From the NCBI GenBank assembly GCA_018712605.1, contig DVGR01000097.1, positions 1 through 50,201 of the forward strand: a stretch of DNA of 50,201 nucleotides, written 5' to 3'. The notes under the pieces are model-generated. The model made no database searches, was not told the origin of the DNA, and saw only the letters and a program-made list of their open reading frames with translations. The stretch comes from Candidatus Choladousia intestinigallinarum. Lineage in GTDB: Bacteria > Bacillota > Clostridia > Lachnospirales > Lachnospiraceae. The position numbers were made by a program, and so were the translations under genes. Shown in pieces: positions 2,909 through 19,868 of the stretch (within the stretch, counting starts at the first letter, position 1; each line of letters begins with the position of its first letter).

Positions 2909-4268
2909 AGAGCTGGTAGAGCAGCAGAGAGCTTATTTTGAGACGGGGAAGACGAAAAATGTCTCCTGGAGAATCGGGGCTTTAGTGACTTTAAAGAAAG
3001 CGATTGTCAGATATGAAAAAGAGATCAACCAGGCCCTTTTGGAGGATCTGAAAAAATCCGGGTTTGAGACGTATATGTGCGAGACGGGCATGGTGCTCAG
3101 TGAGCTTTCTTTTATGATCCGTCATCTGAGAGGCTACGCAAGGCCCAAGCGGGTGCTTACCCCTCTGGCCCAGTTCCACGCCAAGAGCTTTATCTCCCCG
3201 GAGCCCTACGGAGTGACCCTCGTTATGTCTCCCTGGAATTATCCCTTTATGCTGGCTATGGAGCCTGTGATCGGAGCCATTGCCGCAGGAAACTGCGTGG
3301 TGATCAAGCCCAGCGCCTATGCCCCGGCTACCTCTCAGGTGATTGACCGGATTGTCAGGGAATGCTTCGCCCCCCGTTTTGTCACGGTGGTTCAGGGAGG
3401 GCGCAAAGAAAACGAGGCTCTTCTGGAACAGCGGTTTGATTTTATATTTTTTACGGGCAGCGTATCCGTAGGGAAGCTGGTTATGGAGAAGGCGTCCAGA
3501 TATCTGACTCCCGTTTGCTTGGAGCTGGGCGGAAAGAGTCCCTGTATCGTGGACGAGACGGCCAATTTAAAGCGGGCGGCTGCCAGGATCGTATTCGGGA
3601 AATTTCTCAATCTGGGCCAGACCTGTGTGGCCCCGGACTATATTTTTGTCCATGAGAAGGTAAAGGATAAGCTTCTGGAAGAGATCCAGCGCTTTATCCG
3701 CAGGCAGTTGGGAGACAATCCTCTGGAAAATGAGAATTACGGGAAAATTATCAATGAAAAGCATTTCAACCGTCTTCTGGGACTGATGAAGTCTGGAAAG
3801 ATTTATCTGGGGGGAGAAGCCTCAAGGGAGACTCTGCAGATTGCGCCTACTGTGCTGGTAGATGTAAAGCCCTCGGATCCTGTGATGCAGGAGGAAATTT
3901 TCGGGCCGATTCTGCCGGTACTCACCTTCAGGGATATCCGGGAGGTGATCACCTTTGTACAGCACAGGGAGAAGCCTCTTGCACTGTACCTTTTTACTAG
4001 GAGCAAAAAGACGGAAAAGCAGATCCTTCTCCATCTGAGCTTCGGCGGCGGATGCATCAACGATACGATTATTCATCTGGCCACCAGCCGTATGGGCTTT
4101 GGCGGCGTGGGAGCCAGCGGGATGGGAAGCTACCACGGAAAGAGAAGCTTCCAGACTTTCAGCCATGAGAGAAGCATTGTGAAAAAATATAATTGGCTGG
4201 ATCTTCCGATCCGGTATCAGCCGTACAAGAATTGGAAGGAATTTTTGCTGCGGATCTTTCTCCGATAA
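2898..4268 (+). CDS. NAD(P)-dependent aldehyde dehydrogenase (ALDH3-like)
   Basis: A 456-residue enzyme oxidising aldehydes to carboxylates. It shows SPWNYP (111-116), the cofactor loop FFTGS (~184-188), the general base Glu209 in LELGGKSP and the nucleophile Cys243 in GQTC. The short N-terminus and the basic, aromatic C-terminal tail (RYQPYKNWKEFLLRIF) resemble the class-3 fatty-aldehyde group, some members of which attach to membranes through the tail. It overlaps the alcohol dehydrogenase by 11 bp and ends the MarR-controlled operon. With the SCP2-like protein upstream, medium- or long-chain aldehydes are a reasonable but untested substrate class. Confidence 0.92.
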   Translation: MEIKELVEQQRAYFETGKTKNVSWRIGALVTLKKAIVRYEKEINQALLEDLKKSGFETYMCETGMVLSELSFMIRHLRGYARPKRVLTPLAQFHAKSFISPEPYGVTLVMSPWNYPFMLAMEPVIGAIAAGNCVVIKPSAYAPATSQVIDRIVRECFAPRFVTVVQGGRKENEALLEQRFDFIFFTGSVSVGKLVMEKASRYLTPVCLELGGKSPCIVDETANLKRAAARIVFGKFLNLGQTCVAPDYIFVHEKVKDKLLEEIQRFIRRQLGDNPLENENYGKIINEKHFNRLLGLMKSGKIYLGGEASRETLQIAPTVLVDVKPSDPVMQEEIFGPILPVLTFRDIREVITFVQHREKPLALYLFTRSKKTEKQILLHLSFGGGCINDTIIHLATSRMGFGGVGASGMGSYHGKRSFQTFSHERSIVKKYNWLDLPIRYQPYKNWKEFLLRIFLR

Positions 4269-5707: not shown

Positions 5708-6876
5708 AGCCCTATCTGAGACGGGGATGCGACGTCCTTCTGGGGGTTTTATACCTGGGGCTTCTGGGAAGCTCCTATCAGCTTTTCCTCAGACAGGCCA
5801 TCCATTACCCGGGGAAGCTGGGGGTTTACGACTCGGATCTTCCGGTTCATATATCAGAGGGGATCAATGGAACTTCCTACAGCCTTATGGAGCGCTCCTA
5901 CGGATTTTTGATGGATACCCTGGGCTTAAATGAGAAAGCCGCAGCGCTCTGGCTTGCGTTTCTTACGGGGGCCACGGTACTTGCCCTGTGGGTGCTGCTG
6001 TGCCGGCTGTTTCCGGCAGGCAGCAAGAGGGCTTTGCATTTTCTGGCTTTTGCCTGTTCCTTTGTGATGCCCCTGTATATCCCCTGGGTGAATGATTACC
6101 GGTATATGGGGATGCAGTCGGGAAATCTCTGGCACAACTCCACGTATCTGGGCATGAAGTTTGCCGCTGTTTTGGTTCTTCTCATCTATTTTTCCTGGAT
6201 GAAAAGGTACCAGGAAGGAATTGGCGTCGGGCGGTGGCTGCTGTTTACGGCTTCCCTGATTTTTGTGAATCTTATGAAGCCCAATTTTATTCTCTGTTTT
6301 GCTCCGGCTATGGGGATTTGGCTTCTGGGGGACTGCGTCCAGGCGAAGGGACGGACTCTGAAATATCAGATTCTCTTCGGGATTCCAGTTCTGCTCTCTC
6401 TCTTAGTGGTGATTTATCAGACTGCGGTGCTTTTTCAGGGAGAGGGGGACGGATCACGGATTACGCTGATGCTCTCCTATAATTTCCTTAAATATAACCG
6501 GTATCCTGGGGCGGCTCTGCTGCAGTCCGCGGCTTTTCCCCTGCTGGTTCTGGCAGGGAACCTGAAGGAGCTGAAAAAAGACAAAGCCTTTGGGTTTTCC
6601 TGGCTGGTGTGGCTCTTTGGCCTGCTGACCTATCTCTTCGTGGGAGAAGAGGGCCCCAGAAAAACTCATGGGAATTTTTCCTGGGGCTATAGTTTCTGCG
6701 TCTTTCTGGTTTTTGCGGTATGTGCGGTGAAGGTTTATGAGAAAGTGAAAGAGGGAAAGCTCTCACCTATGAGAAAAGCGTATTTTGCAGGGACAGGAGC
6801 CGTGTTTCTCTGGCACCTGGGCTGCGGCCTTACATACTTTATACATCTCTATCTGGGCGGCACTTATATTTGCTGA
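5704..6876 (+). CDS. Polytopic membrane protein, possibly GT-C-like
   Basis: A 390-residue protein with about nine to ten hydrophobic segments. After the first segment comes an extracytoplasmic loop, GVYDSDLPVHI, whose acidic pair and histidine recall the first-loop motif of GT-C glycosyltransferases. A central NLMKPNFILCFAPA segment also resembles those enzymes. I cannot place it in a named family. Its ATG overlaps the aspartate kinase stop by 4 bp, so it is translationally coupled to that gene, an odd pairing. At the 3' end it overlaps the convergent lysR gene by 13 bp. Lipid-linked sugar transfer is one possibility; function is otherwise unknown. Confidence 0.6.
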   Translation: MKPYLRRGCDVLLGVLYLGLLGSSYQLFLRQAIHYPGKLGVYDSDLPVHISEGINGTSYSLMERSYGFLMDTLGLNEKAAALWLAFLTGATVLALWVLLCRLFPAGSKRALHFLAFACSFVMPLYIPWVNDYRYMGMQSGNLWHNSTYLGMKFAAVLVLLIYFSWMKRYQEGIGVGRWLLFTASLIFVNLMKPNFILCFAPAMGIWLLGDCVQAKGRTLKYQILFGIPVLLSLLVVIYQTAVLFQGEGDGSRITLMLSYNFLKYNRYPGAALLQSAAFPLLVLAGNLKELKKDKAFGFSWLVWLFGLLTYLFVGEEGPRKTHGNFSWGYSFCVFLVFAVCAVKVYEKVKEGKLSPMRKAYFAGTGAVFLWHLGCGLTYFIHLYLGGTYIC

Positions 6877-7772
6877 GAGAGGGGATCTCTCTGCTTTGCC
6901 CAGGTCTGAACAAAATTTAAAAACTGTCTGGAAGGGGCCGAAAGTTTTCGGCCCTTTAAATATGTCAGACGGATGCTGTTCTCCAGATAAGGGACCACGT
7001 CCACGGCGGAAACGCTGGAGTCGGCGAACACTAGGGCGGGCTGCTTCGTGAGAAGAGCCACCCCCATTCCCTTGCGCACCAGATCGATCATATTGGCAGC
7101 CCGATGGCTGGTGAAGGTGACGTTTGGGGTAAAGCCTGCCGTCAGACAGGCGTTGTAGCAGAGGGAATACATGAGAGTTCCCTTATTTAAAAAGAATAGA
7201 TTTTCTTCTTTCAGTTCATTTAATGTCACGAAATCTTTTCCGGCCAGAGGGTGTGTAGCGGGGAAAATCGCTACCACATGGTCTGTGTCAAAGGTGATCG
7301 TCTGAAACGTTTCTTCCTCTTCTTTGAATTCCCTGAGAAAGGCGAAATCACAGGCGCCTGTTTTCAGCATTTCTCCCATCTGGGCAGAGTCCGCCTCCGT
7401 GATATCCAGATGAATGTGGGGAAAGGCAAACTGGAATTCAGCCAGAACGTCGTTAATGTGGTAGTGAGCCATAACCGGAATGGATGCGATGGTGATCCGG
7501 GAATTGGTGTCCGCCAGATGGCTGCTCAGGACAGACGTATATTCCTTTTTGATTTCCAGCATTTTTTTGGCGTAGGGCAGGAAAGCGGTGCCGAAATGGT
7601 TCAGCTTTACCTTCCTGGTGGTACGGTCAAAGAGAGGCGCCCCCAGGTCTGCTTCAATGGACTTGATATGCTTGGAGAGGGTGGACTGGGCGATGAACAG
7701 AGACTCAGCCGCCTGAAGATAGTTTTCGGATTCAGCCAGGGTGACAAACTCTTGAATGTAATCTAATTCCAT
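6864..7772 (-). CDS. LysR-family transcriptional regulator
   Basis: A 302-residue regulator with the N-terminal winged helix (ELDYIQEFVTLAESENYLQAAESLFIAQSTLSKHI, with DLGAPLFDRTTRKVKL after it) and a type-2 periplasmic-binding-like effector domain. ATG 7772 is chosen over the longer frame starting at 7844: the shorter form begins at the family's usual point and has GAGGAAGA 4 bp upstream, and the -35/-10 of its own promoter lie inside the longer reading frame. It faces the esterase-transporter-hydrolase operon across 190 bp, the classic arrangement for a LysR activator and its target. The effector is probably the imported compound or a product of it. Confidence 0.93.
   Translation of the reverse strand: MELDYIQEFVTLAESENYLQAAESLFIAQSTLSKHIKSIEADLGAPLFDRTTRKVKLNHFGTAFLPYAKKMLEIKKEYTSVLSSHLADTNSRITIASIPVMAHYHINDVLAEFQFAFPHIHLDITEADSAQMGEMLKTGACDFAFLREFKEEEETFQTITFDTDHVVAIFPATHPLAGKDFVTLNELKEENLFFLNKGTLMYSLCYNACLTAGFTPNVTFTSHRAANMIDLVRKGMGVALLTKQPALVFADSSVSAVDVVPYLENSIRLTYLKGRKLSAPSRQFLNFVQTWAKQRDPLSQQI
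6932..6957 (+). terminator. Hairpin inside the lysR 3' end, likely terminator for the aspartate kinase operon
   Basis: GGGCCGAAA (6935-6943) pairs with TTTCGGCCC (6946-6954), extended by A-U/G-U pairs on both sides and followed by TTTAAA. It lies about 60 bp past the stop of the membrane protein gene and within the coding sequence of the convergent lysR. The T-tract is short, so efficiency is uncertain. Confidence 0.45.
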
Positions 7773-7815
7773 AATTCTTCCTCTTTCTCTTTGGTTCGTT
7801 ACTGATTTTAAAAAA

Positions 7816-7844
7816 ATTTTAAAACGAAAGAATAGAGTTGTCAA
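7816..7844 (-). promoter_or_regulatory. Promoter of the lysR gene
   Basis: On the minus strand TTGACA (7844-7839), a 17 bp spacer and TAAAAT (7821-7816) form a near-consensus sigma-A promoter. Transcription would start near 7809, giving a leader of about 37 nt before ATG 7772. Confidence 0.8.
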
Positions 7845-7853
7845 TGCAGACGA

Positions 7854-7874
7854 TTTATTCCTTTTCGGAATAAA
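7854..7874. promoter_or_regulatory. LysR-type binding box (T-N11-A inverted repeat)
   Basis: TTTATTCC (7854-7861) and GGAATAAA (7867-7874) form a perfect 8-bp inverted repeat around five bases. The core TTCC-N5-GGAA fits the LysR T-N11-A rule (7858-7870). Its centre lies about 63 bp upstream of the start predicted for the divergent operon, where LysR recognition sites normally sit, and close to the lysR -35, where binding could also repress lysR. Confidence 0.75.
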
Positions 7875-7891
7875 AGGGAAAGGAAGTCGAA

Positions 7892-7920
7892 TTGATTGTC
7901 GAATCTGTTTAAACTATAAT
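7892..7920 (+). promoter_or_regulatory. Promoter of the esterase/transporter operon
   Basis: TTGATT (7892-7897), a 17 bp spacer and a consensus TATAAT (7915-7920). The weaker -35 together with the upstream LysR box suits an activated promoter. The predicted leader is about 36 nt before ATG 7963. Confidence 0.78.
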
Positions 7921-7962
7921 GTGTACAGAAAGAAAACATAAACAATTTGACGGAGAAAAAAC

Positions 7963-8895
7963 ATGAAACCAAAATTAGCCTTTCCCATACCGACGACACC
8001 GGAATTTGATCCGGGGGAGCTGCCGGAAAATATTACAAAACATTTGGATCTGCAGTATGGCTGTGATTCCAGGGAACAGGTGCTGGATCTGTATCTTCCC
8101 CGAGAAGGAACGGGGAAGTCGCCGCTGATTCTCTACATTCATGAAGGGGCATTTGCCTTTGGGAGCAAGAGAGACAAAAGGGCGGAGACCTTGTTTAAAG
8201 CTCTGGAAAGAGGGTATGCCATTGCCAGTATAGATTACAGGAAGAGCGGTGAGGCTACATGGCCGGCTCCTCTCTATGATATTAAGACGGCAGTGCGGTT
8301 TTTAAGGGCTCACGCAGATACATACTCTCTGGATGAGAACCGGTTCGCCGCCTGGGGCATGTCGGCGGGAGCCTACTACGGCAGTCTGGCGGCAGTTACC
8401 CATGGCATTCCCGGTTTTGAAGATCCCCGGACCGGATACGGAGCGTTCAGCAGCGGCCTTCAGGCAGTTGTGGATCTGTGCGGCGCCTGTTCAGGATTTC
8501 ATCTTCTGGATGAGATGATCCGGGAGAACGGGGGGACAAACCCCACCCACGACAGGGAGAATTCACCGGAATCTATTCTTATGGGAAATCCTCTTCAGGA
8601 GATCCGAGAGCTTTGCCGGCTGGCGGCGCCTATTACCTATGTGAATGGGAAGGTCCCCCCCTTCTTTATTTTCCACTGCGTTAGCGACCCGGTGGTTCCG
8701 GTACAGCAGTCAGAAAATTTTGCTGCAGCTCTGAAGAAAGCGGCTGGAGAAGAGAAGGTAAAACTGGTTCTGGGACAAGGACAGGGGGATCATGGGAAAC
8801 CGGATTATAATACCCGGGAGATTGTAAGGGAGGCCCTGGATTTTCTGGATCAGGTCTTTTCCCTTCATGAGGAAACGGAGGCGCTTCCTGCATAA
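7963..8895 (+). CDS. Alpha/beta-hydrolase esterase
   Basis: A 310-residue cytoplasmic hydrolase of the hormone-sensitive-lipase/acetyl-esterase type. An oxyanion-type H-E-G sits at residues 60-62 (HGG in most relatives), the nucleophile elbow GMSAG at 132-136 (Ser134), and the probable acid and base at Asp242 (SDPVVP) and His277 (GDHG). No signal peptide is seen, so it acts on something already taken up. It is the first gene of the LysR-divergent operon, followed after 64 bp by the substrate-binding protein. It probably cleaves a carboxylic ester from the imported compound. The substrate is unknown. Confidence 0.85.
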   Translation: MKPKLAFPIPTTPEFDPGELPENITKHLDLQYGCDSREQVLDLYLPREGTGKSPLILYIHEGAFAFGSKRDKRAETLFKALERGYAIASIDYRKSGEATWPAPLYDIKTAVRFLRAHADTYSLDENRFAAWGMSAGAYYGSLAAVTHGIPGFEDPRTGYGAFSSGLQAVVDLCGACSGFHLLDEMIRENGGTNPTHDRENSPESILMGNPLQEIRELCRLAAPITYVNGKVPPFFIFHCVSDPVVPVQQSENFAAALKKAAGEEKVKLVLGQGQGDHGKPDYNTREIVREALDFLDQVFSLHEETEALPA

Positions 8896-8959
8896 GAGGA
8901 GTAGTAAATGTCAAGGCATTTATTATAGACTACAAAAAAAGAAAGAGAGGGTAAAAATT

Positions 8960-10531
8960 ATGAAGAAAAAACTTGTGGCACTTTTGATGGCCGGCTGCAT
9001 GCTGTGTTCCCTTGCAGGGACAGGCATTGCCGCAAGTGCGGCGGAAGAGGGCAGAACTGAGAGCGTGACAGTAGGTGTATTGTCTGATCCGGAAAATATG
9101 GGGCCGTGGTCAGGAATGTCCCAGGGGCGTATCGCCATGCTGTTCTCTGTATATGAGTATATGGTAACTCGTGAGGACGGGGAAGTATACGGAGTGCTGG
9201 CTAAGGACTGGGAGAGAATCGACTCTAAGACGTACGATGTAGAGATTTATGACTACATCCACGATGCGGACGGGAATCCTCTGACAGCGTCGGATATTGT
9301 CTTCAGCTTTGAATCTGCCATCGCCACCAAGAACTACAGTAAGCTGAACGTGGTGGAGAGCGTAGAGGCTCTGGATGATTACAACGTAGAGTTCAAGTTT
9401 AACAAGGATCTGGAGATCGGAGAGTTTGAGAACGTAATGCTGGAGTGCGCCATTGTCACCCAGGCAGCCTATGAAGCTTCAGAAGATCAGATGGCCACCA
9501 CTCCTGTGGGAACCACCGCATACAAGGTGGAGAGCTACGTGCCCGGTTCTGAGCTGATTCTTCGCGACACCGGAAACTACTGGCAGACGGATGAATCCTT
9601 AGTACACGGCACCAGCGTCCACAATGCGGACGAGATCATCTTCTCTGTGATTACCGAGGCTTCCCAGCACACGGTAGCCCTTCAGACAGGGGCTGTAGAT
9701 GTGTCAAACGGCGTACCTGATACAGACATTGCCAAATTTGAAGAGGGCGGCGAGTATGCGGAAGGCAACCAGGTATCAATCGTACTGGATAACCTTTCCT
9801 ACGATATCACCTACAATATGTCAGACAGCTCCGTATTTAAGGACGACCTGAATCTCCGTCTGGCTCTGGCATATTCCATTGATAAAGAAGGGCTGAATCT
9901 GGGCGCTTTCAATGGAAACGGCGCGGCTGTGAAGGATTTCGCCAACGCTACTTATCCGGATTATAATTCTGAATGGGACAGCGAGGATTACTATGACTAC
10001 AATGTAGAGACTGCCCAGGAATATCTTGCTCAGTCCAATTACAACGGTGAGACTCTGACACTGATGTACACCAATTCCGGCGCTATGGAAATACTTGCCC
10101 AGATGCTTCAGGCATATTTCGGGGCAATCGGCGTAACGGTGGAACTGGTAGGATACGACCAGATGATGGCGCAGCAGGAGCAGTACAATGCGGAAGGATT
10201 CGATATTCTTCTTAGAACCACCGGTTCTACGGACTATATCGTAAATCAGTGGAAGCTGTGCTGGGATTCCAGAGATTATCAGGAAGTGACAGGGGGAACT
10301 TCAAACTTTACGCAGGACGACAAGCTTCAGGAGCTGATGGAAGCCTGCCTGAGTGTAGATACCTACGGAGAAGAATCCATTGAAGCTTTCCATGATTATA
10401 TGGTAGAAAACTGCTACGGATACGGCATTGTTGAAGGGCCCATCAATATCGTTCATTCTGAAAAGATTTCAGAGATAGCCCTGGATGCGAGAAATCAGAT
10501 TCTCCCGGGAGCATGTGTATACGCTGAATAA
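8960..10531 (+). CDS. ABC transporter substrate-binding protein, family 5 (peptide/nickel type)
   Basis: A 523-residue extracytoplasmic binding protein (SBP_bac_5, DppA/OppA class). The N-terminus MKKKLVALLMAGCMLCSLAG is a signal sequence. Cys13 could be a lipobox cysteine (MAGC), but the hydrophobic stretch before it is short, and cleavage after ASA near residue 28 is also possible, so anchoring is uncertain. ATG 8960 is preferred over the longer frame from 8867: GAGAGG lies upstream and the signal peptide starts here. Mature features include DGNPLTASDIVFSFESA and LRLALAYSIDKEGL, both family hallmarks. It delivers ligand to the permeases encoded next. The family binds peptides, glycosides, opines and other compounds, so the name does not fix the ligand. 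Confidence 0.93.
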   Translation: MKKKLVALLMAGCMLCSLAGTGIAASAAEEGRTESVTVGVLSDPENMGPWSGMSQGRIAMLFSVYEYMVTREDGEVYGVLAKDWERIDSKTYDVEIYDYIHDADGNPLTASDIVFSFESAIATKNYSKLNVVESVEALDDYNVEFKFNKDLEIGEFENVMLECAIVTQAAYEASEDQMATTPVGTTAYKVESYVPGSELILRDTGNYWQTDESLVHGTSVHNADEIIFSVITEASQHTVALQTGAVDVSNGVPDTDIAKFEEGGEYAEGNQVSIVLDNLSYDITYNMSDSSVFKDDLNLRLALAYSIDKEGLNLGAFNGNGAAVKDFANATYPDYNSEWDSEDYYDYNVETAQEYLAQSNYNGETLTLMYTNSGAMEILAQMLQAYFGAIGVTVELVGYDQMMAQQEQYNAEGFDILLRTTGSTDYIVNQWKLCWDSRDYQEVTGGTSNFTQDDKLQELMEACLSVDTYGEESIEAFHDYMVENCYGYGIVEGPINIVHSEKISEIALDARNQILPGACVYAE

Positions 10532-10540
10532 TTTTCTGTC

Positions 10541-10571
10541 AGGGCGGCCTTTGAAGACTTAAGGCCGCCCT
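10541..10571 (+). other. Stable hairpin between the binding protein and permease genes
   Basis: AGGGCGGCCTT (10541-10551) pairs perfectly with AAGGCCGCCCT (10561-10571) around nine bases. The following GTTTTGGG is a poor T-tract. Such hairpins after binding-protein genes often protect the upstream message or terminate partially, so that the binding protein is made in excess over the membrane parts. Confidence 0.7.
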
Positions 10572-10614
10572 GTTTTGGGATTGGGCTTATAGTATAGCGG
10601 AAAGGGTTTTGTGT

Positions 10615-11586
10615 ATGTGGAAATATATTATAAAACGTCTTCTCTGGATGATTCCTGTGCTCCTGGGGATTTCCATTGTAATATTTACGATTATGTATTT
10701 TTGTCCAGGAGATCCGGCTACAGCCATCCTGGGGAACGGAGCGACGCCGGCTGCCATTGCGGAAAAACGTGCGGAGATGGGGCTGGATGAACCGTACCTG
10801 GTTCGTCTGGGAGATTATTTAAGCCAGGTATTCCTTCACTTTGATCTGGGTACCTCCTACTTCCAGAATCAGTCCGTAATGTCAGGAATTCTTTACAGAC
10901 TTCCTTATACCTTTGCCATTGCGGCCATCTCCATGCTGCTGCAGATCTGCATAGGGACGCCCCTGGGAATCACTGCGGCAGTCCATCAGAACGGGATTGC
11001 GGACCGTGTCTGCATGATCGTGGCTCTGGGCGGCGTTTCTATCCCGGGCTTCTGGCTGGCTATGATGCTGGTGCTGGTATTTTCCGTACAGCTGGGATGG
11101 CTGCCTCCATACGGTGTGGGAGGACTTCCATATTATATTCTTCCCTGTGTGGCCAATGCCTTTGCGGGAATCGCCTCACAGGCCAGACAGACCCGTTCCA
11201 GTATGCTGGAGGTTATCCGGTCGGACTACATCGTAACGGCCAGGGCCAAGGGCCTTTCTGAGAGAGAGATTCTCTACAAACATGCGCTTCCCAACGCTCT
11301 GATTCCCATTATCACGGTAATCGGGAACGGCATGGGAATGATGCTTGGAGGAACGGTGGTCATTGAGTCTGTGTTCTCCATTCCGGGGATTGGAATGTAT
11401 ACCACCCAGGCCATTAACAACAGAGACTACCCCATCGTTATGGGAGGCGTGCTGTTCCTGGGAGCTGTGTTCAGTCTGATCATGCTGCTGGTGGATGTGA
11501 TTTACGCTTTCGTGGATCCAAGAATCAAGGCGCAGTATGAGGGGCAGCAGAGTATTTTCAGAAGAAGGAGGAAGAAAAATGGCTAA
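10615..11586 (+). CDS. ABC transporter permease, DppB/OppB type
   Basis: A 323-residue inner-membrane subunit with six predicted transmembrane segments. It begins MWKYIIKRLLWMIPVLLGISIVIF, the standard start of DppB proteins, followed by the loop PGDPA. The cytoplasmic coupling segment with the EAA-type motif is at VTARAKGLSEREILYKHALPNALIP. ATG 10615 is preferred over TTG 10609 because AAAGGG ends 8 bp before it. It forms the channel with the next gene product, whose start overlaps its stop by 8 bp. It is part of the LysR-linked operon. Confidence 0.93.
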   Translation: MWKYIIKRLLWMIPVLLGISIVIFTIMYFCPGDPATAILGNGATPAAIAEKRAEMGLDEPYLVRLGDYLSQVFLHFDLGTSYFQNQSVMSGILYRLPYTFAIAAISMLLQICIGTPLGITAAVHQNGIADRVCMIVALGGVSIPGFWLAMMLVLVFSVQLGWLPPYGVGGLPYYILPCVANAFAGIASQARQTRSSMLEVIRSDYIVTARAKGLSEREILYKHALPNALIPIITVIGNGMGMMLGGTVVIESVFSIPGIGMYTTQAINNRDYPIVMGGVLFLGAVFSLIMLLVDVIYAFVDPRIKAQYEGQQSIFRRRRKKNG

Positions 11587-12472
11587 TCATGGGGCTGCGG
11601 CGGCAGCGGATGTTAAAGTTAGAAAGAAAAAAGAAGGCCAGTTCAGTCTTGTGATGAAGCGCCTGAGCAAAAACAAAGTGGCTATGGCAGGCCTTGTGAT
11701 CATCCTGATTCTCTTTTTGGCGGCGATCCTGGCCCCCTACATAATCCCTTACGGCTATGACGCCATGAATATGGCGGAGCGGTTTGCCAGCCCCTCTCTA
11801 AAGCACCTGTGCGGAACAGATGAGATGGGAAGAGATATTTTCAGCCGTCTTCTGTACGGCGGGAGGGCTTCTCTGTCCCTGGGCTTTTTGGCCACGATCA
11901 TCTCCACCCTGGTGGGAATGTTTATCGGGTCTTTGGTAGGATATTTCGGCGGCGTGGTAGACACGGTGGTCATGCGATTTGTGGACATTCTGCAGGCTAT
12001 CCCGGGTATCCTTCTTGCCATCGCCATTTCCGCATGTCTGGGAAGCGGATTCGTAAACACCATCATTGCTCTGTCCATCGGAGGGGTTCCTATGACCGTG
12101 AGACTTCTGCGGGGATCGATTATGGGCGTGCGTAAGATGGAGTATCTGGAGGCGGCTCAGACCATTAACTGCTCTGTTCCCCGGCTGATTATTAAGCACA
12201 TTCTTCCCAACAGTATCTCGCCGATCATTGTGTCGGTAACCATGGGAATCGGAAATACCATCCTGATGGCTGCTTCTTTAAGCTATATCGGGCTGGGCGT
12301 GCAGCCTCCCACACCGGAGTGGGGCGCCATGCTCTCAGCGGCCAGAACGTACATGCGGGATTATCCCCACATGGTACTGTTTCCCGGTCTGGCCATCGCC
12401 ATCGTAGTGCTTTCGCTGAATATGCTGGGCGATGGGCTTCGGGATGCTCTGGATCCGAAACTGAAACAATAG
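11579..12472 (+). CDS. ABC transporter permease, DppC/OppC type
   Basis: A 297-residue partner permease. A basic, alanine-rich N-terminal tail precedes the first membrane segment (MAGLVIILILFLAAILAPYI), then comes the DppC hallmark LCGTDEMGRDIFSRLLYGGR. The coupling motif lies around YLEAAQTINCSVPRLIIKHILPNSISPI. ATG 11579 overlaps the dppB-like gene by 8 bp and follows AAGGAGGAAGA; the longer frame from 11537 lies inside the upstream gene. It forms the heterodimeric channel. Confidence 0.93.
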   Translation: MANHGAAAAADVKVRKKKEGQFSLVMKRLSKNKVAMAGLVIILILFLAAILAPYIIPYGYDAMNMAERFASPSLKHLCGTDEMGRDIFSRLLYGGRASLSLGFLATIISTLVGMFIGSLVGYFGGVVDTVVMRFVDILQAIPGILLAIAISACLGSGFVNTIIALSIGGVPMTVRLLRGSIMGVRKMEYLEAAQTINCSVPRLIIKHILPNSISPIIVSVTMGIGNTILMAASLSYIGLGVQPPTPEWGAMLSAARTYMRDYPHMVLFPGLAIAIVVLSLNMLGDGLRDALDPKLKQ

Positions 12473-12484
12473 GAGGGGAAGAAC

Positions 12485-13486
12485 GTGAGTATAGAGAAAA
12501 AACAGAGCCCTTTTCTGGAGGTAAAAAATCTGACGGTTCATTATACCTCAGAAGGTAAAAAAATACATGCGGTAAATGATGTTTCTCTTTCCCTGAACAG
12601 AGGCGAGACTCTGGGGCTCGTAGGAGAGACGGGGGCAGGAAAAACCACCATCGCCAAATCCATCCTGCGGATTCTGCCGGAACCTCCCGCCCATGTGGAT
12701 CAGGGGGAGATTCTGCTGGAGGGGAAGGATCTCCTTCCTCTTCCCAATGATGAGATGCGGAAAATCAGGGGAAAAAGAATTTCCATGATCTTCCAGGATC
12801 CCATGACTGCGCTGAATCCGGTTATGAGAATCGGCAGGCAGATTGCCGAAGGCATTCAGCTTCACGAAAAGATTTCCAAAAAGGAAGCGGAAGAAAAAGC
12901 TAAGAAGATGCTGGAGATGGTAGGAATTCCAGCCTCCAGATATAAAGAGTACCCCCATCAGTTTTCGGGCGGTATGAAGCAGAGAGTGGTGATTGCCATG
13001 GCTTTGTCCTGCAGCCCGGATCTGCTTCTGGCAGATGAGCCCACCACGGCCCTGGACGTGACCATCCAGGCCCAGGTGCTGGATATTATAAAGAACCTGC
13101 AGCAGAAGATGAATACTTCTATGATCATGATTACCCATGACCTGGGAATTGTGGCTGAGGTCTGCGACCAGGTGGCGGTGGTCTATGCAGGAGAGATCGT
13201 GGAGAGCGGCAGCAAGGAAGAGATTTTCGACCATCCCACACACCCTTACACGGTGGGGCTTTTTGGCTCCCTGCCGGATATTCATTCTGAAGTGGAGCGG
13301 CTTTCACCCATTGCCGGTATGCCGCCGGATCCAAGCAACCTGCCGGAGGGATGCGCATTTTCTCCCAGATGTCCTTATGCCACCAGGGAATGCCGTCAGG
13401 GCAAAGTGAAGCTGGCATCTTTAGGAGGAACCCATATGTGCCGCTGCATCCGAAATATGAAAGGGGAGGGAGAACAACATGGCTAA
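12485..13486 (+). CDS. ABC transporter ATPase, DppD/OppD type
   Basis: A 333-residue ATPase powering the importer. Walker A is GETGAGKTT (47-55), the signature FSGGM (160-164) and Walker B LLLADEP (180-186), with the switch histidine in MITHDLG. The C-terminal oligopeptide-transporter extension carries the cysteine motif CAFSPRCPYATREC, which in related proteins can bind an iron-sulfur cluster. The GTG start follows AGGAGGGGAA by a few bases. The stop overlaps the next ATPase gene by 8 bp. Confidence 0.94.
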   Translation: MSIEKKQSPFLEVKNLTVHYTSEGKKIHAVNDVSLSLNRGETLGLVGETGAGKTTIAKSILRILPEPPAHVDQGEILLEGKDLLPLPNDEMRKIRGKRISMIFQDPMTALNPVMRIGRQIAEGIQLHEKISKKEAEEKAKKMLEMVGIPASRYKEYPHQFSGGMKQRVVIAMALSCSPDLLLADEPTTALDVTIQAQVLDIIKNLQQKMNTSMIMITHDLGIVAEVCDQVAVVYAGEIVESGSKEEIFDHPTHPYTVGLFGSLPDIHSEVERLSPIAGMPPDPSNLPEGCAFSPRCPYATRECRQGKVKLASLGGTHMCRCIRNMKGEGEQHG

Positions 13487-14432
13487 AACTTTAATCGAAG
13501 TAAAGCATCTGAAAAAATATTTTCCCACTCCCAAAGGAATGCTCCATGCGGTGGATGATGTGACGTTTTCCATTGGAGAGGGACAAACCATGGGAGTCGT
13601 GGGAGAGTCCGGCTGCGGCAAATCCACGCTGGGACGTACCTTGATTCATTTGTATGAGAGTACGGACGGCCAGATTTTGTTTAAGGGAAAAGATATTACC
13701 CATGTGGGAAAGAGGAAGCTCCATGAGCTTCGCAAGGAAATGCAGATTATTTTTCAGGATCCCTTTGCGTCCCTGAATCCCCGTATGACCGTCCAGGAGA
13801 CCATTATGGAGCCTTTGGAGCTGGCTGGCTATCATAAAAGCAAACTCATGGATAAGACGGAAGAAATTATGGACATGGTGGGAATTGACGAGAGACTGCG
13901 CCATTCCTATCCCCATGAGCTGGACGGAGGAAGAAGGCAGCGTGTGGGAATCGGGCGGGCCCTAGCCCTGGATCCTGCCTTTGTGGTCTGCGACGAACCG
14001 GTTTCAGCCCTGGATGTGTCCATTCAGGCCCAGGTTCTCAATCTTCTTCAGGATCTCCAGGCAAAATCAGGAGTTACCTACATGTTTGTCACCCATGACC
14101 TGTCCGTGGTAAAGCATATCTCAGACTATATCTGCGTTATGTATCTGGGACAGCTTGTGGAGACCACTACCTCCAGGGAACTTTTTGCGCATCCGGTGCA
14201 TCCCTATACAAAAGCGCTGCTCTCCGCCATCCCTTCTGTAGACATTCACCACAAGAGGGAGAGAATTCTCCTTCAGGGAGAAATCGTCTCCCCTGTGGAG
14301 CCAAAGCCGGGATGCCGTTTTGCGGCCAGATGTCCTTACGCCACCAAGCAGTGCCAGGAACCCCAGCAGCTTCGAGAGATTGGAAAAGAACATTTTGTGT
14401 CCTGCTGCAGGGCGGAGGAAATCGGAGGATGA
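13479..14432 (+). CDS. ABC transporter ATPase, DppF/OppF type
   Basis: A 317-residue second ATPase, paired with the DppD-like subunit. Walker A is GESGCGKST (42-50), Walker B FVVCDEP (168-174), and the switch region FVTHDLSVVKHI. The ABC signature reads LDGGR (148-152) rather than LSGGQ; the same kind of substitution is known in clostridial DppF-like proteins, but it should weaken one of the two composite ATP sites. The C-terminal cysteine motif CRFAARCPYATKQC is present. The start lies within the upstream gene's end and follows GGGAGGG. Confidence 0.94.
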   Translation: MAKTLIEVKHLKKYFPTPKGMLHAVDDVTFSIGEGQTMGVVGESGCGKSTLGRTLIHLYESTDGQILFKGKDITHVGKRKLHELRKEMQIIFQDPFASLNPRMTVQETIMEPLELAGYHKSKLMDKTEEIMDMVGIDERLRHSYPHELDGGRRQRVGIGRALALDPAFVVCDEPVSALDVSIQAQVLNLLQDLQAKSGVTYMFVTHDLSVVKHISDYICVMYLGQLVETTTSRELFAHPVHPYTKALLSAIPSVDIHHKRERILLQGEIVSPVEPKPGCRFAARCPYATKQCQEPQQLREIGKEHFVSCCRAEEIGG

Positions 14433-14459
14433 GACATTTTGAGATAGGAGGGATGCGTC

Positions 14460-15740
14460 ATGAAAGCCGGTGCTGGAAAAGCTGAGATCGTACTTGCTGA
14501 CAGCTATCTGGAATTGGAAGATTTTGCTGTGATACACAGAACCCTGAACGCCAGGGCCCTTGTCCTGGAGAGCGAAGACACCGCAGTCCTTCTTTCCCTG
14601 GAGCTGACCTCGCTTCCAGAGGAAGAAGTGCAGAATCTGAAAGAAGCCATTGCGGAGCGTTTCAAGCTGAAGAAAGATTTGATCTGGGTCTGCGTGACCC
14701 ATACCTTTTCAGCGCCTCATTTTCTCCCGGATTTTCGTCTGAAGGGACCGGAACAGCTTGCGCTGAAGGAGAAATTCAGGGAGGAAGTGACCGGAGCGGC
14801 TATGAAAGCCGTGTCAAAGGCATTCCGCGCCCTTCAGCCTGCCAAAGCCGGGTTCGGCATTGGATTTTGTGAGGTGAACCGGAACCGGGACGTGGAGCTT
14901 GAAGACGGGTGGTGGATCGGAGAAGAGGGCATGGGACTTACGGACCGTCAGGTCTGTGTCCTTCGCTTTGACAGCATGGAGGACAGGACCATTGCTTTTC
15001 TGTTTCACTATGCAGTCCAGTCCTCTGTGATGGACGGTTCAAGACTGGGGGCAGGCGGAAAGGCGGTAACGCCGGATCTTGCCGGGATCGCCAGCGATTT
15101 TGTGGAAAAGAAAGATGAGCAGGGAGAGACGATAGCTCTCTTCCTTCTGGGCGCCGCCGGGGATCAGGCTCCGGTGGAGCGAGCTGTAAAAGAAACCTTT
15201 GTCCAGGGGGAGAGAATCCACAAAGACAAACAGGAAGAGGGTTTCGGGATCTGCGAGAGGCTGGGAAGCCAGCTTGGAGAGACTGTCTGGAAGATCCAGG
15301 AAAAGATCCGCTGTGAGGAAGAGTCCCGCAGTCTGGAATTTGGAAAGATCTTTTTCCGGGTGCCGGGGAAGGAGATGGAGCGGGAGCTGGCAAAGCTGCA
15401 TCCGGTAAAAGCGATGGAGTATATTCCCCAGGGAGAGAAGAGTGTGCAGGTGGAAGTGATTAAGCTGGGAGAACTGGCCCTTGTGGGGGTGAAGCCGGAG
15501 CTGAACTGTGCCACGGCCACGGCGATCCGATGCTGTTCTCCCTTTAACCGTACCCTTGTATGCACTATGGTCAACGGTGCGGAGAAATATATGGCGGACC
15601 GGGATTCCTATGACCGGTTTACTTATGAAGCTATGAATTCTCCCTTTGGGAAAGGAGCTGCAGAGATTCTCACCAGGCAGGCTCTGGGGCTTTTGGAGAG
15701 CATGGACAGACAGCAGGAGAAAGAAAGGAATCAGGTATGA
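14460..15740 (+). CDS. Neutral/alkaline ceramidase-like protein
   Basis: A 426-residue protein resembling the N-terminal catalytic domain of neutral ceramidases, zinc amidases that split ceramide into sphingosine and fatty acid. Visible family features are the opening motif GAGKAEI, a core strand followed by VTHTFSAPH (residues 79-87, matching the metal-site NTHSHSGP), NRNRD (140-144) and LLGAAGDQAP (229-238, matching NxxGDVSP). There is no signal peptide, and it lacks the C-terminal immunoglobulin-like domain of full ceramidases. It overlaps the next gene by 4 bp. With an importer upstream it would act on an internalised amide. Substrate and activity are inference. Confidence 0.6.
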   Translation: MKAGAGKAEIVLADSYLELEDFAVIHRTLNARALVLESEDTAVLLSLELTSLPEEEVQNLKEAIAERFKLKKDLIWVCVTHTFSAPHFLPDFRLKGPEQLALKEKFREEVTGAAMKAVSKAFRALQPAKAGFGIGFCEVNRNRDVELEDGWWIGEEGMGLTDRQVCVLRFDSMEDRTIAFLFHYAVQSSVMDGSRLGAGGKAVTPDLAGIASDFVEKKDEQGETIALFLLGAAGDQAPVERAVKETFVQGERIHKDKQEEGFGICERLGSQLGETVWKIQEKIRCEEESRSLEFGKIFFRVPGKEMERELAKLHPVKAMEYIPQGEKSVQVEVIKLGELALVGVKPELNCATATAIRCCSPFNRTLVCTMVNGAEKYMADRDSYDRFTYEAMNSPFGKGAAEILTRQALGLLESMDRQQEKERNQV

Positions 15741-17779
15741 AGGTACTGGAAGTTACAGCCATAACAAAAGTATTTGGAGATGGGCAGAAGACAATAGGAG
15801 CCGCTTTGCTGTATGACTGCGTCAGAACCAGAGAGGAACTTCAGAACACAGAATATACGGTGGAAGGCAGACGAGTCTTGGAGGCCTTCGTAAATCACAC
15901 GGGTTGTCTTGAAGATAAGGAAGAGGCTGGAAATTGGGTGATGCTTAAGCTGGACCCCGATGATGGGGAAGCTTCCACCAAAACCATGGTGGGGAGAGGA
16001 AGAGAAGCGCGAATTCACAGAGTTCCTCCAAGGCTTTTGGTGAGAGCTGGAGAGGAAACTTATGTCTCAGACCGAGAACGGAATCTTACGGCGGATCAGT
16101 TCCAAACCTTTGTGTTCCAGGTGCCGGGATCGGATCGGGAGATTACATACAATCTCTTCCAGCCCCAGCAGAAGACGGAAGGGGAAAGTTACCCCCTGGT
16201 GCTTTTTATGCACGACGCAGGATCTTGTTCCAGTGAGCCTCAGGCTGCGCTGATTCAGGGAAATGGAGCTGTGGCCTGGGCCGAGGAAGAGTCCCAGAAG
16301 CGCCATCCCTGCTTCGTCCTTGCACCCCAATACCCCTCTGTGGCGGCGGACGACGACTTTACGGTAACCTGGGAGGCGGACGCCACCGTAGAGCTGGTGA
16401 AGGATCTCTTGGAGAAATATCCCATAGACGCCAAAAGGGTGTACGGTACAGGACAGTCTATGGGCTGCATGATGCTCTGTGAATTAAATCTCAGGAATCC
16501 TGGCTTTTTCGCCGGATGCTTTTTGGTGGCCGGCCAGTGGAACCCAGCTACCATGTCGGGAGTAAAGAAAGAAAATCTCTGGATCCTTGTATCGGAGAAA
16601 GACGAGAAGGCATTTCCAATTATGGGAGCCTGCATGGAAGAGATAGAGAAGGCCGGCGGCCGTGTGACCAGGGGAAAACTGGACGGGGAAGCCTCTTTGG
16701 AAGAGCAGAACCAGAAAATGCGGGAGTTTGCTTCACAGGGAAACCACATTCTTTTTACCTGGTACCAGGGAAAGAGCGTGATGGCCGGCAAAAAGGCAGA
16801 ATTTCCCGGGGCTTACCACATGGCTACCTGGGAAAAGGCCTACGGCCTTGCGTCTGTGCAGGATTGGCTCTTCGCTCAGAAGGCGGTTCCTATGGATTTC
16901 TCCTGCAAGCATGAAGTGCTGCTTAGGGGAGAGGATGGAAGCCTGATTCCCATGGATGTGCCCTACTATGAATCCAGGCAGGTGGCGCCTGGAACGTGGC
17001 AGATCTTAAGCGATGGGGATTATACGTATCTGGTGGAAGGAGAAGAGGAAGCCCTGGTGATTGATTCCGGCTACGGATGCGGAAATATCCGGGCCTACTG
17101 CCAGAGCCTTACCAAGAAGCCGGTGCGGCGGATCGCCAATACCCATGACCATTTTGACCATACAGCCAACAACGGCTATTTTGACCGGGCGTATATGTCA
17201 CGGGAGACAAGCAGACTGGCTACCATTCCATTCCCAAGTTTTCAGGGAATTGAATTCTCAAGAGATTATCCTGTAGAGGTAATCGAGGAAGGCTACTGTT
17301 TCAATCTGGGCGGAAGAGAGCTTCTGACCTTCACCATGCCGGATCATGCGCCTGGCAGCCTGGCATTTTTGGATCGGAGAGAGGGGATTCTCTTCTGTGG
17401 GGACGAGCTGTGCATGCCCTTTGGGAAGCCTCTAAACGGCAGCGTGGAGCGGTTCAGGGGATATCTGAAAAAGCTTCAGGAATACAGACAGGAAATCCGC
17501 CTCCTATGCGGCGGCCCCGGGATTGAAAAGCCGGAGCTGATAGACCGGTTGGTGGAAAATATGGACTATATTCTGGCAGGCCATGAAGGAAAGCCAGTGG
17601 AGCCCATGCCGGAGAGAGGACCGGAGCCTTCCGAAGACGGGCCGGTGATTTATGACCGGAGGCTTCCGCACCAGCCGGACAGGCATCAGGAGGATCCGGC
17701 GGATCAGCCCTTTAAAAGAGTGATGGAATACGCCGGATGCAGAGTGATCTATGATGTAAGGCGTGTCTTTGAAAACTGA
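15737..17779 (+). CDS. Ig-like/esterase/metallo-beta-lactamase fusion hydrolase
   Basis: A 680-residue protein with three parts. Residues 1-~110 resemble the Ig-like N-terminal domain of COG4099-type esterases (YTVEGRRVLEAFVN). Residues ~125-385 are an alpha/beta hydrolase: strand LVLFMHDAG, nucleophile elbow GTGQSMG (Ser241) and a probable base His361. Residues ~420-625 are a metallo-beta-lactamase fold with THDHFDH (469-475), His537 in MPDHAPGS and Asp556 in FCGDE, so the zinc ligands look complete. No signal peptide is seen. Two hydrolase chemistries on one chain suggest consecutive cuts of one substrate, for example an ester and then a lactone, thioester or amide. It overlaps the ceramidase-like gene by 4 bp. 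Confidence 0.78.
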   Translation: MKVLEVTAITKVFGDGQKTIGAALLYDCVRTREELQNTEYTVEGRRVLEAFVNHTGCLEDKEEAGNWVMLKLDPDDGEASTKTMVGRGREARIHRVPPRLLVRAGEETYVSDRERNLTADQFQTFVFQVPGSDREITYNLFQPQQKTEGESYPLVLFMHDAGSCSSEPQAALIQGNGAVAWAEEESQKRHPCFVLAPQYPSVAADDDFTVTWEADATVELVKDLLEKYPIDAKRVYGTGQSMGCMMLCELNLRNPGFFAGCFLVAGQWNPATMSGVKKENLWILVSEKDEKAFPIMGACMEEIEKAGGRVTRGKLDGEASLEEQNQKMREFASQGNHILFTWYQGKSVMAGKKAEFPGAYHMATWEKAYGLASVQDWLFAQKAVPMDFSCKHEVLLRGEDGSLIPMDVPYYESRQVAPGTWQILSDGDYTYLVEGEEEALVIDSGYGCGNIRAYCQSLTKKPVRRIANTHDHFDHTANNGYFDRAYMSRETSRLATIPFPSFQGIEFSRDYPVEVIEEGYCFNLGGRELLTFTMPDHAPGSLAFLDRREGILFCGDELCMPFGKPLNGSVERFRGYLKKLQEYRQEIRLLCGGPGIEKPELIDRLVENMDYILAGHEGKPVEPMPERGPEPSEDGPVIYDRRLPHQPDRHQEDPADQPFKRVMEYAGCRVIYDVRRVFEN

Positions 17780-17818
17780 GCGGATTTGCATACAACATAG
17801 AATAGGAGAGCAGTAAAT

Positions 17819-18349
17819 ATGGAAACAGAAACAAAAGCATCCGTAACTCTTTTAGACGTCAGGATCGCCGTGGCGATCCTGATCTGCTGCCTGACCTCAA
17901 CCATACTGGATCACCTGGGCTTGAGGTTTCAGGCGGGGGAAATGAGGCTGGAAGTGATCCAGAAAATGACAGCCTGCATTTCCTGCCTTCTCTGCTGTCA
18001 GGACAATGTTCCTATAAGCAAAAAAGCCGGCATCAACCGGCTGATCATCACCGCCATCGGAGGGCTGGTGGGAATTGCAGTGATCTGTATCGACAACGTC
18101 CTTGGAAATCCGTGGATCATGGTACTGATGATCGCCCTGGGAATTCTCGTGACCCTGTTTTTGTGCAAGGCAGCCAAAGTGCCGTACATAAATGCCAGGA
18201 TCGGGGGCGTCACCTTTATTCTGGTTACCTGCACTCTGTCAGGCACGGCCAGGATCTGGTATGGGATCTTCCGGTTCGTTTCAACCTTTTACAGTGTGCT
18301 CATTGTCCTGCTGGTGACATGGGTATTCCAGAAGGCAGTGAAGAAATAA
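17819..18349 (+). CDS. ArAE/FUSC-like small integral membrane protein
   Basis: A 176-residue membrane protein with about five to six hydrophobic segments. LDVRIAVAILICCLTSTIL near the N-terminus and the RLIITAIGGLVGIAV stretch resemble the N-terminal membrane half of aromatic-acid exporter (ArAE/FUSC) proteins. The soluble half is absent. It is the last gene of the LysR-linked operon, 39 bp after the fusion hydrolase and just before a terminator. It may export a breakdown product of the imported compound. The family call is moderate and the substrate is unknown. Confidence 0.6.
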   Translation: METETKASVTLLDVRIAVAILICCLTSTILDHLGLRFQAGEMRLEVIQKMTACISCLLCCQDNVPISKKAGINRLIITAIGGLVGIAVICIDNVLGNPWIMVLMIALGILVTLFLCKAAKVPYINARIGGVTFILVTCTLSGTARIWYGIFRFVSTFYSVLIVLLVTWVFQKAVKK

Positions 18350-18363
18350 TGGTTTATAAAAAG

Positions 18364-18396
18364 GAGGGAAATGCTGTAAGGCATCCCTCTTTTTTT
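18364..18396 (+). terminator. Rho-independent terminator of the LysR-linked operon
   Basis: GAGGG-(AA bulge)-ATGC (18364-18374) pairs with GCAT-CCCTC (18381-18389) and is followed by seven T. It lies 14 bp after the last stop codon of the operon. Confidence 0.9.
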
Positions 18397-18774: not shown

Positions 18775-19101
18775 ATGGTTTTTAATACAGGAGCCGCACT
18801 GCTGGACGCCATCGTACTCTCGGTAGTTTCCTCAGAAGAGGAAGGGACATATGGGTACAGGATCACCCAGGAAGTGAGGGCTGTCCTGGAAGTATCGGAA
18901 TCCACTCTGTACCCGGTTCTGCGCAGGCTTCAGAAAGATAACTGCCTGACTGTATATGACAAAGAATACGGCGGAAGGAATCGAAGATACTATAAGATTA
19001 CAGAGCAGGGTCTGGCGCAGTTAGCTCTGTATCGAAATGAGTGGAAAATCTATTCGGAAAAAATTACGGCGATTTTGTCGCTGGGGAGGAATTTGTTATG
19101 A
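18775..19101 (+). CDS. PadR-family transcriptional regulator
   Basis: A 108-residue regulator of the short PadR subfamily. It has the winged helix GTYGYRITQEVRAVLEVSESTLYPVLRRLQKDNCLTVYDKEYGGRNRRYYKIT (residues ~23-78), with the family's TLYPVLxRL and RRYYxIT motifs, and a short dimerisation helix. The ATG follows GAGAAGGTGAT. Its stop overlaps the DUF1700 gene by 4 bp (ATGA). PadR repressors commonly control DUF1700/DUF4097 envelope genes, exactly the neighbours here, and the repeats in its leader suggest autoregulation. Confidence 0.93.
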   Translation: MVFNTGAALLDAIVLSVVSSEEEGTYGYRITQEVRAVLEVSESTLYPVLRRLQKDNCLTVYDKEYGGRNRRYYKITEQGLAQLALYRNEWKIYSEKITAILSLGRNLL

Positions 19102-19868
19102 ATCGGGAAGAGTTCTTAAAGCAGCTTTCGTATCTGCTTTCAGATCTGGAAGAGGAAGAGAGGGAAGAAGCTCTGGCTTACTACCGGGATTATCTGGAGG
19201 AATCCGGGGAGCTTAGCCCGGAAGAAATCCAGGCAAGGCTTGGCAGCCCGGAGAAGGTTGCGGCGGAGATTAAAGGCGGCCTATCCGGGAATGACCGCGG
19301 AGGGGAATTTACGGAGCGCGGATATGAAGACTCACGCTATAAAGAAGAGGATAGGATTCCGGATCAGTACGGACAGATTGTGGAAACTGGATATAGAAAG
19401 GAAAAGCGAACCGGAAGAAAGAGAAGAAGAGGTTCAGATAAAAGAAATCAGGGACTTATACTCATTCTGCTGATCGTATTTTTTGGCATTCCTGCGGCAG
19501 GCAGTCTGATCTCAGCGGGATTTTCCGTGATATTCGGGATTCTGGGAGGAATCCTGGGGGTATTTGCAGGGTTGTTTGGTCTGGTCTTTGCGGCTTTCGG
19601 CGCAGCTATTGGATTCTTAGCCGGGGGTATAGAGATGATCCTGCAGGGAGGGAGCCGCATGGCTTCGCCTGCATACGGGACCATGACGATCGGCGGCGGA
19701 TTTTTTATGCTGGCTGCGGCTCTGATAGCGGCTTTTCTGGGCAAGTGGGGATGTTCCAACGTGATCCCCGCCCTATTCCGGTTTATATTTGAACAGCTTG
19801 GAAGATTCTTCCGGTGGCTTGGAAAGGCTCTTCGGCGGATCTTTGACAAAGGAGGTGCTTCTAAGTGA
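19098..19868 (+). CDS. DUF1700 family membrane protein
   Basis: A 256-residue protein with the family's N-terminal cytoplasmic helical hairpin, MNREEFLKQLSYLLSDLEEEEREEALAYYRDYLEE. A charged linker (residues ~70-118) leads to glycine-rich membrane segments from ~120 to ~220 and an amphipathic basic tail. ATG 19098 is preferred over the longer frame from 19041: it matches the family start, follows GGGGAGGA and overlaps the padR stop. DUF1700 proteins occur with PadR and DUF4097 proteins in envelope-stress modules; the biochemical role is unknown. Confidence 0.88.
   Translation: MNREEFLKQLSYLLSDLEEEEREEALAYYRDYLEESGELSPEEIQARLGSPEKVAAEIKGGLSGNDRGGEFTERGYEDSRYKEEDRIPDQYGQIVETGYRKEKRTGRKRRRGSDKRNQGLILILLIVFFGIPAAGSLISAGFSVIFGILGGILGVFAGLFGLVFAAFGAAIGFLAGGIEMILQGGSRMASPAYGTMTIGGGFFMLAAALIAAFLGKWGCSNVIPALFRFIFEQLGRFFRWLGKALRRIFDKGGASK

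Follow-up and report, generated by a model that had tools for sequence, protein, structure and literature searches.

Many accounts place tannases outside the cell or on its surface, and TanB and LpdBCD of Lactiplantibacillus plantarum make up a system of tannase and gallate decarboxylase. A route leading from tannase through gallate decarboxylase to phloroglucinol is outlined in PMC10470551. The locus described here lies in a 50,201-nucleotide stretch of Candidatus Choladousia intestinigallinarum (assembly GCA_018712605.1, contig DVGR01000097.1, positions 1-50,201), called the window below. It consists of a lysR gene opposite nine co-directional genes, which encode an alpha/beta esterase of the BD-FAE family, a complete Dpp/Opp-type importer, a ceramidase-like protein (CER), a fusion of an Ig/esterase part with a metallo-beta-lactamase (MBL) domain, and a small FUSC-like membrane protein. 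The locus resembles the tannase/gallate-decarboxylase systems in that it is likely to act on phenolics by acyl-ester hydrolysis, in a palindrome common to the window and a locus of another genome of the class (G733), and in the tannase-B and UbiD/UbiX relatives encoded by its own genome and by some CER loci. In contrast to those systems, the operon itself has neither a tannase (tannase queries found no match in the window) nor a UbiD/UbiX-type decarboxylase, both kinds of gene lying on contig C112 of the same genome; the importer, CER and the MBL domain are extra.

With a probability of about one half, the operon is read as serving to bring conjugates of plant phenolics (galloyl-type) into the cell and to de-esterify them in the cytosol. 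This LysR-controlled catabolism would act on an ester or acyl-glycoside of a plant phenolic, with the galloyl/hydroxybenzoyl (hydrolysable-tannin) type the likeliest. In the proposed order of steps, the conjugate would be bound by the substrate-binding protein (SBP), a lipoprotein, and carried into the cell by DppBCDF; the two alpha/beta esterases (BD-FAE and the EstA-like domain of the fusion) would then split acyl bonds in the cytosol. The MBL domain and CER may take further bonds, whether lactone, ester or amide not being assignable. The freed aromatic acid would be exported, by the FUSC-like protein here and by MATE proteins in relatives, or would be decarboxylated by UbiD/UbiX enzymes encoded beside a tannase on the other contig. 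LysR is predicted to act from a palindrome at 7854-7874. If this proposal is true, some anaerobes would use a conserved importer and cytosolic hydrolases to reserve the conjugate for their own use. All component families are known ones; no description was found of their joint occurrence, of the altered site in CER or of the shared palindrome, and no paper among those listed on ceramidase, tannase, tannin, PF04734, LysR operators and ellagic acid describes such a cluster, as judged from the listings and the openings of abstracts.

A conserved gene set and its amidohydrolase partner

Relatives of CER occur in 20 of the 98 genomes near the window's genome. A wider set of 34 CER loci was obtained from a scan of named genomes with an alignment of close CER relatives as query; a single CER protein, used as query in the scan of genome contigs, gave no matches. 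The loci span Murimonas intestini, Lucifera butyrica, Clostridium neonatale and Paenibacillus pinistramenti, and are also found in bins named Spirochaeta, Atopobium, Propionibacteriaceae and Lactobacillus. Because 15 are contigs from the window's own genus (the other 19 come from outside it), the 34 are not independent. Loci L130-L132, L153-L158, L164-L183 and L195-L201 are not counted among them. Neighbour counts are lower bounds, with flanks of up to 10 kb and many loci ending at contig ends, and the genes of relatives are longest open reading frame (ORF) calls, among which families F14 and F20, probably antisense artefacts, were ignored.

A LysR gene is present in 25 of the 34 loci, an MBL in 23, a Dpp permease in 20 and an Ig-esterase in 17; a COG2159-type amidohydrolase, which the window does not have, is present in 29, a MATE gene in nine and a beta-glucoside phosphotransferase system (PTS) in seven. 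A contrast set of 20 tannase/lpdC loci had a single MBL and a single permease, and lacked CER, Ig-esterase and amidohydrolase altogether. For example, in Murimonas (L096) the order SBP-B-C-D-F-CER-fusion is that of the window, followed by the amidohydrolase, and the LysR of that cluster is 61% identical to the window's. As judged from these neighbourhoods, the CER gene set is a conserved unit. The original prediction had named, as the outcome that would speak against it, hydrolase homologues rarely lying next to each other or to a LysR-dpp cluster; the counts above do not show that outcome. Its proposal of a LysR-controlled locus that imports and then hydrolyses its substrate is supported. Since the hydrolase domains are fused in alternative combinations (esterase with MBL in some loci, CER with esterase in others), the set appears to serve one pathway.

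The partner amidohydrolase, assigned to what we take to be COG2159, belongs to PF04909; LigW, gamma-resorcylate decarboxylase and ACMSD are among the PDB structures closest to it. It differs from the LigW-type decarboxylases in its N-terminal motif, D-A/S-N-x-Y-W in 14 sequences, in the usual Asp position, which is Ser there (the reference being the presumed metal-ligand positions of the family), and in its absence from the window's genome, where it was not found in an assembly that is 87% complete. In the genus it is present in 16 of the 47 genomes; 15 of these belong to the 16 that have a CER orthologue. Some amidohydrolase or cerB clusters (L195, L157 and L158) also hold GH3-like and HAD phosphatase-like genes, L195 a lactonase-like gene as well, a hint, from similarity, of glycosidic substrates.

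Tannase, decarboxylase genes and a shared palindrome

Homologues of tannase-B (NCBIfam cut-off, 300 bits) are found in five of the 34 CER loci, all of them among the 19 from outside the genus: L115 (691 bits), L098 (638), L116 (617), L105 (330) and L119 (274, under the cut-off, with an ORF that ends at the locus edge). A VdcC-like UbiD is encoded in two (L098 and L124) and UbiX in one (L098). Tannase-B is rare in the class at large, with matches in 5 of 391 genomes (four over the cut-off), and none of 14 control genomes has it. Among the 47 genomes of the genus (G000-G046), tannase-B is present in 16/16 with a CER orthologue versus 8/31 without (Fisher, 7e-7). Three genomes with weak CER matches (G026, G027 and G037) are taken as negative in this comparison; taken as positive, they give 17/19. 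The VdcC-like UbiD is distributed in the same way, 16/16 versus 9/31 (Fisher, 1e-6). In the window's own genome, a tannase-B gene (334 bits), UbiX, LysR and UbiD stand in a row on contig C112 (L153, C112:1524-6698), probably a locus for phenolic esters and hydroxyarylate decarboxylation. Genes of the window's operon families also turn up beside tannases elsewhere: BD-FAE relatives are present in 8 of the 20 tannase/lpdC loci, and in a relative, G161, tannase-like genes stand next to the importer family, with scores of 391 bits in L195/L132 and of 268 bits, under the cut-off, in L201.

The second link is a palindrome, TTTATTCC-TTTTC-GGAATAAA, with perfect 8-bp arms, which lies at 7854..7874 (no strand assigned) between the divergent promoters and is probably the LysR operator. 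The pattern TTTATTCC-N5-GGAATAAA occurs at this sole place in the own genome when up to two mismatches are allowed. It is exact in the Lucifera butyrica cluster, in the gap between LysR and amidohydrolase, and twice exact in that of Clostridium neonatale; one mismatch is seen in the Paenibacillus CER cluster and two in Murimonas. Within the window's genus, the majority of CER loci lack it at two mismatches or fewer. A GAATTG element, read by eye, follows the palindrome at similar spacing in L115, L118, L122 and L199. The core ATTCC-N5-GGAAT was counted in 102 stretches (1.64 Mb, some overlapping) that had been picked for CER, tannase or lpd genes; 24 exact copies were found versus 2.4 expected under a first-order model, and about two thirds of these have close by a promoter of LysR or of the first gene of a CER cluster or tannase/lpd locus.

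Of 361 class genomes, two have an exact copy of the full palindrome: the window's genome and G733, whose site was known before this count was made. In G733 the palindrome separates LysR from a UbiX/UbiD operon; a tannase-B gene (671 bits), itself preceded by a second core, lies about 2.2 kb past UbiD. The exact core is present at eight sites in the own genome versus one for the reversed control: two at the window and C112 LysR loci, five in other coding frames and one on C266. The related site in the UbiX-tannase locus on C112 overlaps the 3' end of the LysR frame there, and the degenerate pattern that describes it was drawn from both own-genome sites, which makes it no independent test; the count of the exact core is the fairer comparison. 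Together with the tannase-B and decarboxylase linkage, the shared palindrome strengthens the plant ester among the substrates that had been suggested for the locus. The palindrome and the gene set also supply concrete candidates for work with purified proteins: a substrate, an inducer and two enzyme families whose active sites have changed.

Hydrolase active sites and alternative substrates

CER (14460..15740, plus strand) matches Ceramidase_alk (PF04734) at 35.8 bits, the cut-off being 32.1, and its profile matches the neutral ceramidases 4wgk and 2zws. It differs from neutral ceramidase in being short and in its site residues; a simple hydropathy scan found no hydrophobic N-terminus, and with it the secreted or surface trait of neutral ceramidase is missing. 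Aligned to 2zws/4wgk, the site residues of the window's CER are His81, Phe83, His87, Gln187, Ala237, Glu347 and Tyr377. We take His97, His204, Glu411 and Tyr448 of 2zws to be the zinc ligands, and the Ser to be the active-site residue; on that assumption the ligand set is incomplete in the window, where it reads His, Gln, Glu, Tyr. An alignment (A6) of 29 sequences, 25 CER and four of a second paralogue, CER2, agrees at the positions of His97, Glu411 and Tyr448 in every row. The position of His99 is Phe in 22 CER rows, Ile in two and Leu in one; that of His204 is Gln in 23 and Lys in two; and that of the Ser is Ala in 18 (as in the window), Cys in two, Val in two, Asp in one and Ser in just two. 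All 25 CER rows have the extra His87, which none of the four CER2 rows has, and CER2 retains the His, His and Ser of 2zws in 4/4. The label "ceramidase" may mislead users of Lachnospiraceae and other genomes that carry CER.

The second paralogue is counted in 7 of the 34 CER loci; its query matched eight, of which the weak match in L099 (72 bits) is probably the CER of that locus. CER and CER2 stand in tandem in L115, L116, L118 and L122 (e.g., L116:11300-12550). In L067-L070 (e.g., L068:9635-12373; family F19), a CER-type domain and an EstA Ig/esterase are joined in natural fusion proteins of 886-914 amino acids (aa). In the L068 protein, on which Pfam was run, the two parts are joined by a long Gly/Pro-rich stretch.

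The fusion in the window (15737..17779, plus strand; 680 aa) combines an EstA-type Ig domain and a PHB-depolymerase/EstA-like esterase (residues ~1-378) with the MBL domain (~379-680). Pfam finds EstA_Ig_like, weak alpha/beta-hydrolase matches and Lactamase_B, all in one frame. The same in-frame join recurs in four of the 34 other loci (L096 of Murimonas intestini, L097, L098 and L128), and on this sequence evidence it is therefore not an assembly artefact. The esterase part resembles EstA (3doh, presumably from Thermotoga maritima) over fusion residues 3-311 and LC-Est1C (3wyd) over 136-303, with Ser and His conserved; it differs from both in being joined to an MBL domain. Its GQSxG motif and His361 are invariant in 13/13 sequences. 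In the MBL part, HxHxDH, the next His and an Asp are invariant in 17/17; the last canonical His, presumably a ligand of the binuclear site, is missing from 16 of the 17 sequences as read by eye, the window's included.

The BD-FAE esterase (7963..8895, plus strand; Pfam 2.3e-53) and the fusion, like CER, showed no hydrophobic N-terminus in the hydropathy scan. As the SBP has a lipoprotein-like signal while these three proteins have no hydrophobic N-terminus, import should come first and hydrolysis follow within the cell. As an architecture, import with cytosolic hydrolysis is well supported. A broader idea, tentative but possible, is that CER and the amidohydrolase belong to an undescribed anaerobic route in which intact phenolic conjugates are imported and dismantled in the cytosol. 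The CER metal site (His99 and His204 lost, His87 new, Ser lost) would then be rewired for a new substrate, the amidohydrolase site would be equally altered, Dpp and beta-glucoside PTS would be interchangeable, and one type of LysR operator would serve across several lineages.

The main rival to a phenolic conjugate is an acylated or aryl glycoside in general, with the sugar as carbon source and the aromatic part variable or an exported by-product. The beta-glucoside-type PTS of seven CER loci fits such a substrate, as does L105, where PTS and tannase-B are accompanied by a gene resembling the GH65-family one in L156/L178. From sequence reading and similarity, the GH3-like and HAD genes of the amidohydrolase loci L157/L158 fit as well, and so do the kinase- and transketolase-like genes that adjoin MBL homologues in L085/L086. 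However, Pfam finds no glycosidase in the window operon, and a glycoside in general leaves unexplained both the linkage of tannase with UbiD/UbiX and the palindrome at a UbiX/UbiD operon; we consider it unlikely. Scavenging of peptides or opines through the Dpp importer, with the hydrolases incidental, is improbable: SBP_bac_5 and DppBCDF would suit it, and agrocinopine-binding proteins are among the PDB matches of the SBP, but there is no peptidase in the operon by Pfam, and importer and hydrolases are found together in many loci.

Use of sphingolipids or N-acyl amides, with CER a true ceramidase, would account for the PF04734 match and the likeness to 4wgk and 2zws. However, CER has no hydrophobic N-terminus, and the His99, His204 and Ser positions, kept in every CER2 row, differ in 25, 25 and 23 of the 25 CER rows; the linked genes, moreover, are tannases and decarboxylases (no search was aimed at sphingoid-base genes). 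This reading is very improbable, and the sphingolipid-like substrate suggested earlier finds no support; the N-acyl amino acid and the drug from the same list of suggestions keep a low probability. The least probable of all is a locus for detoxification of, or resistance to, a drug of ester, lactone or beta-lactam type. An MBL fold, esterases and an efflux-like protein do share one operon here, but an importer points in the wrong direction for resistance, and the MBL part, with its last His missing, scores best against hydroxyacylglutathione-hydrolase-type models and falls far under the beta-lactamase cut-offs (no search was made of resistance and defence libraries). The possibility of an ellagic-acid/urolithin substrate was also weighed, with no evidence to favour or reject it.

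Several results weigh against import and de-esterification of phenolic conjugates. Tannase is missing from the fetched flanks of 29 of the 34 CER loci (up to 10 kb, many ended by contig ends), an esterase like the window's BD-FAE is found in only 2 of the 34, and the genome's own tannase lies on another contig, C112, with a LysR only 30% identical to the window's. Within a single genus, shared ancestry confounds the co-occurrence counts. The UbiD and UbiX scores are under the VdcC and VdcB cut-offs; since none of the 98 genomes passes the VdcC cut-off and the model, being unspecific, also matches 8 of the 14 controls, the co-occurrence of the VdcC-like UbiD is the weaker one. A reversed control pattern is likewise present in two class genomes, so that the palindrome is not above its control in number, and its evidence is its position rather than its count. 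Two of the 391 class genomes match the amidohydrolase profile with no tannase-B match and no CER nearby; these proteins (motif DINMHH) may represent another subfamily. The PTS-type clusters (e.g., C. neonatale and Lactobacillus) suggest a sugar moiety, which could mean another substrate.

Operon layout, transport proteins and neighbouring genes

Each gene of the locus is backed by Pfam (LysR, BD-FAE, SBP_bac_5, two BPD_transp_1, two ATPases, Ceramidase_alk, the fusion and FUSC_2), in agreement with the families named in the original prediction. That prediction had also described a divergent regulator, an eight-gene operon and a terminator; regulator and terminator hold, and the number of co-directional genes is nine. 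From ORF limits, the intergenic gaps are, in order, 61, 77, -50, 12, -8, 27, -4 and 39 nt, the one before the SBP becoming 64 nt if that gene starts at 8960. Because the gaps are short or overlapping, a single transcript for the nine-gene array is plausible. A candidate operon promoter lies at 7892..7920 on the plus strand (TTGATT-17-TATAAT). The array is closed by a strong intrinsic terminator, a hairpin at 18358..18395 on the plus strand (-18.9 kcal/mol, z -4.4; as stable in 0/200 shuffles).

The lysR gene (6864..7772, minus strand; Pfam LysR_substrate and HTH_1) has a frame that is also open to 7844. The best promoter-like site for it, at 7816..7844 on the minus strand (TTGACA-17-TAAAAT, 11/12 consensus bases; a consensus match only), falls within that longer frame, and the N-terminus MELDYI, found also in relatives, begins at 7772; for these reasons the ATG at 7772 is most likely the start rather than 7844.

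The importer resembles the Dpp/Opp/Nik ATP-binding cassette importers in being a complete set of SBP_bac_5, two permeases and two oligo_HPY ATPases. It differs from them in that all NCBIfam models among the matches listed score under their cut-offs, and in the phenolic substrate proposed here. The SBP gene (8960..10531, plus strand) encodes a hydrophobic N-terminus with a lipobox-like LMAGC, and the ATG at 8960 is its more likely start. It is followed on the same strand by the Pfam-assigned DppB/OppB-type permease (10615..11586; TTG at 10609 also possible), the DppC/OppC-type permease (11579..12472; ORF open from 11537), and the DppD-type (12485..13486) and DppF-type (13479..14432) ATPases, both with ABC ATPase and oligo_HPY matches in Pfam. 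The last gene (17819..18349, plus strand) encodes the FUSC-like small membrane protein, of aromatic-acid-exporter type, only 176 aa long and with a hydrophobic N-terminal stretch; it matches PF13515 (FUSC_2) at 28.1 bits (cut-off 25.6; E 2.5e-6). No relative of it was noticed in the inspected neighbourhoods of related loci. With the MATE genes of nine CER loci, it makes export of an end product plausible.

Other genes of the window were noted in passing. Just past the operon terminator, a PadR regulator, a HAAS-domain protein and a DUF4097 protein are encoded in a row (18775-20671). An iron alcohol dehydrogenase gene is followed by one of the aldehyde dehydrogenase family at 1727-4268. A RhuM-family gene (PF13310, 351 bits) lies on the minus strand at 22539-23567, between the genes for DNA polymerase III delta and a germination protease.

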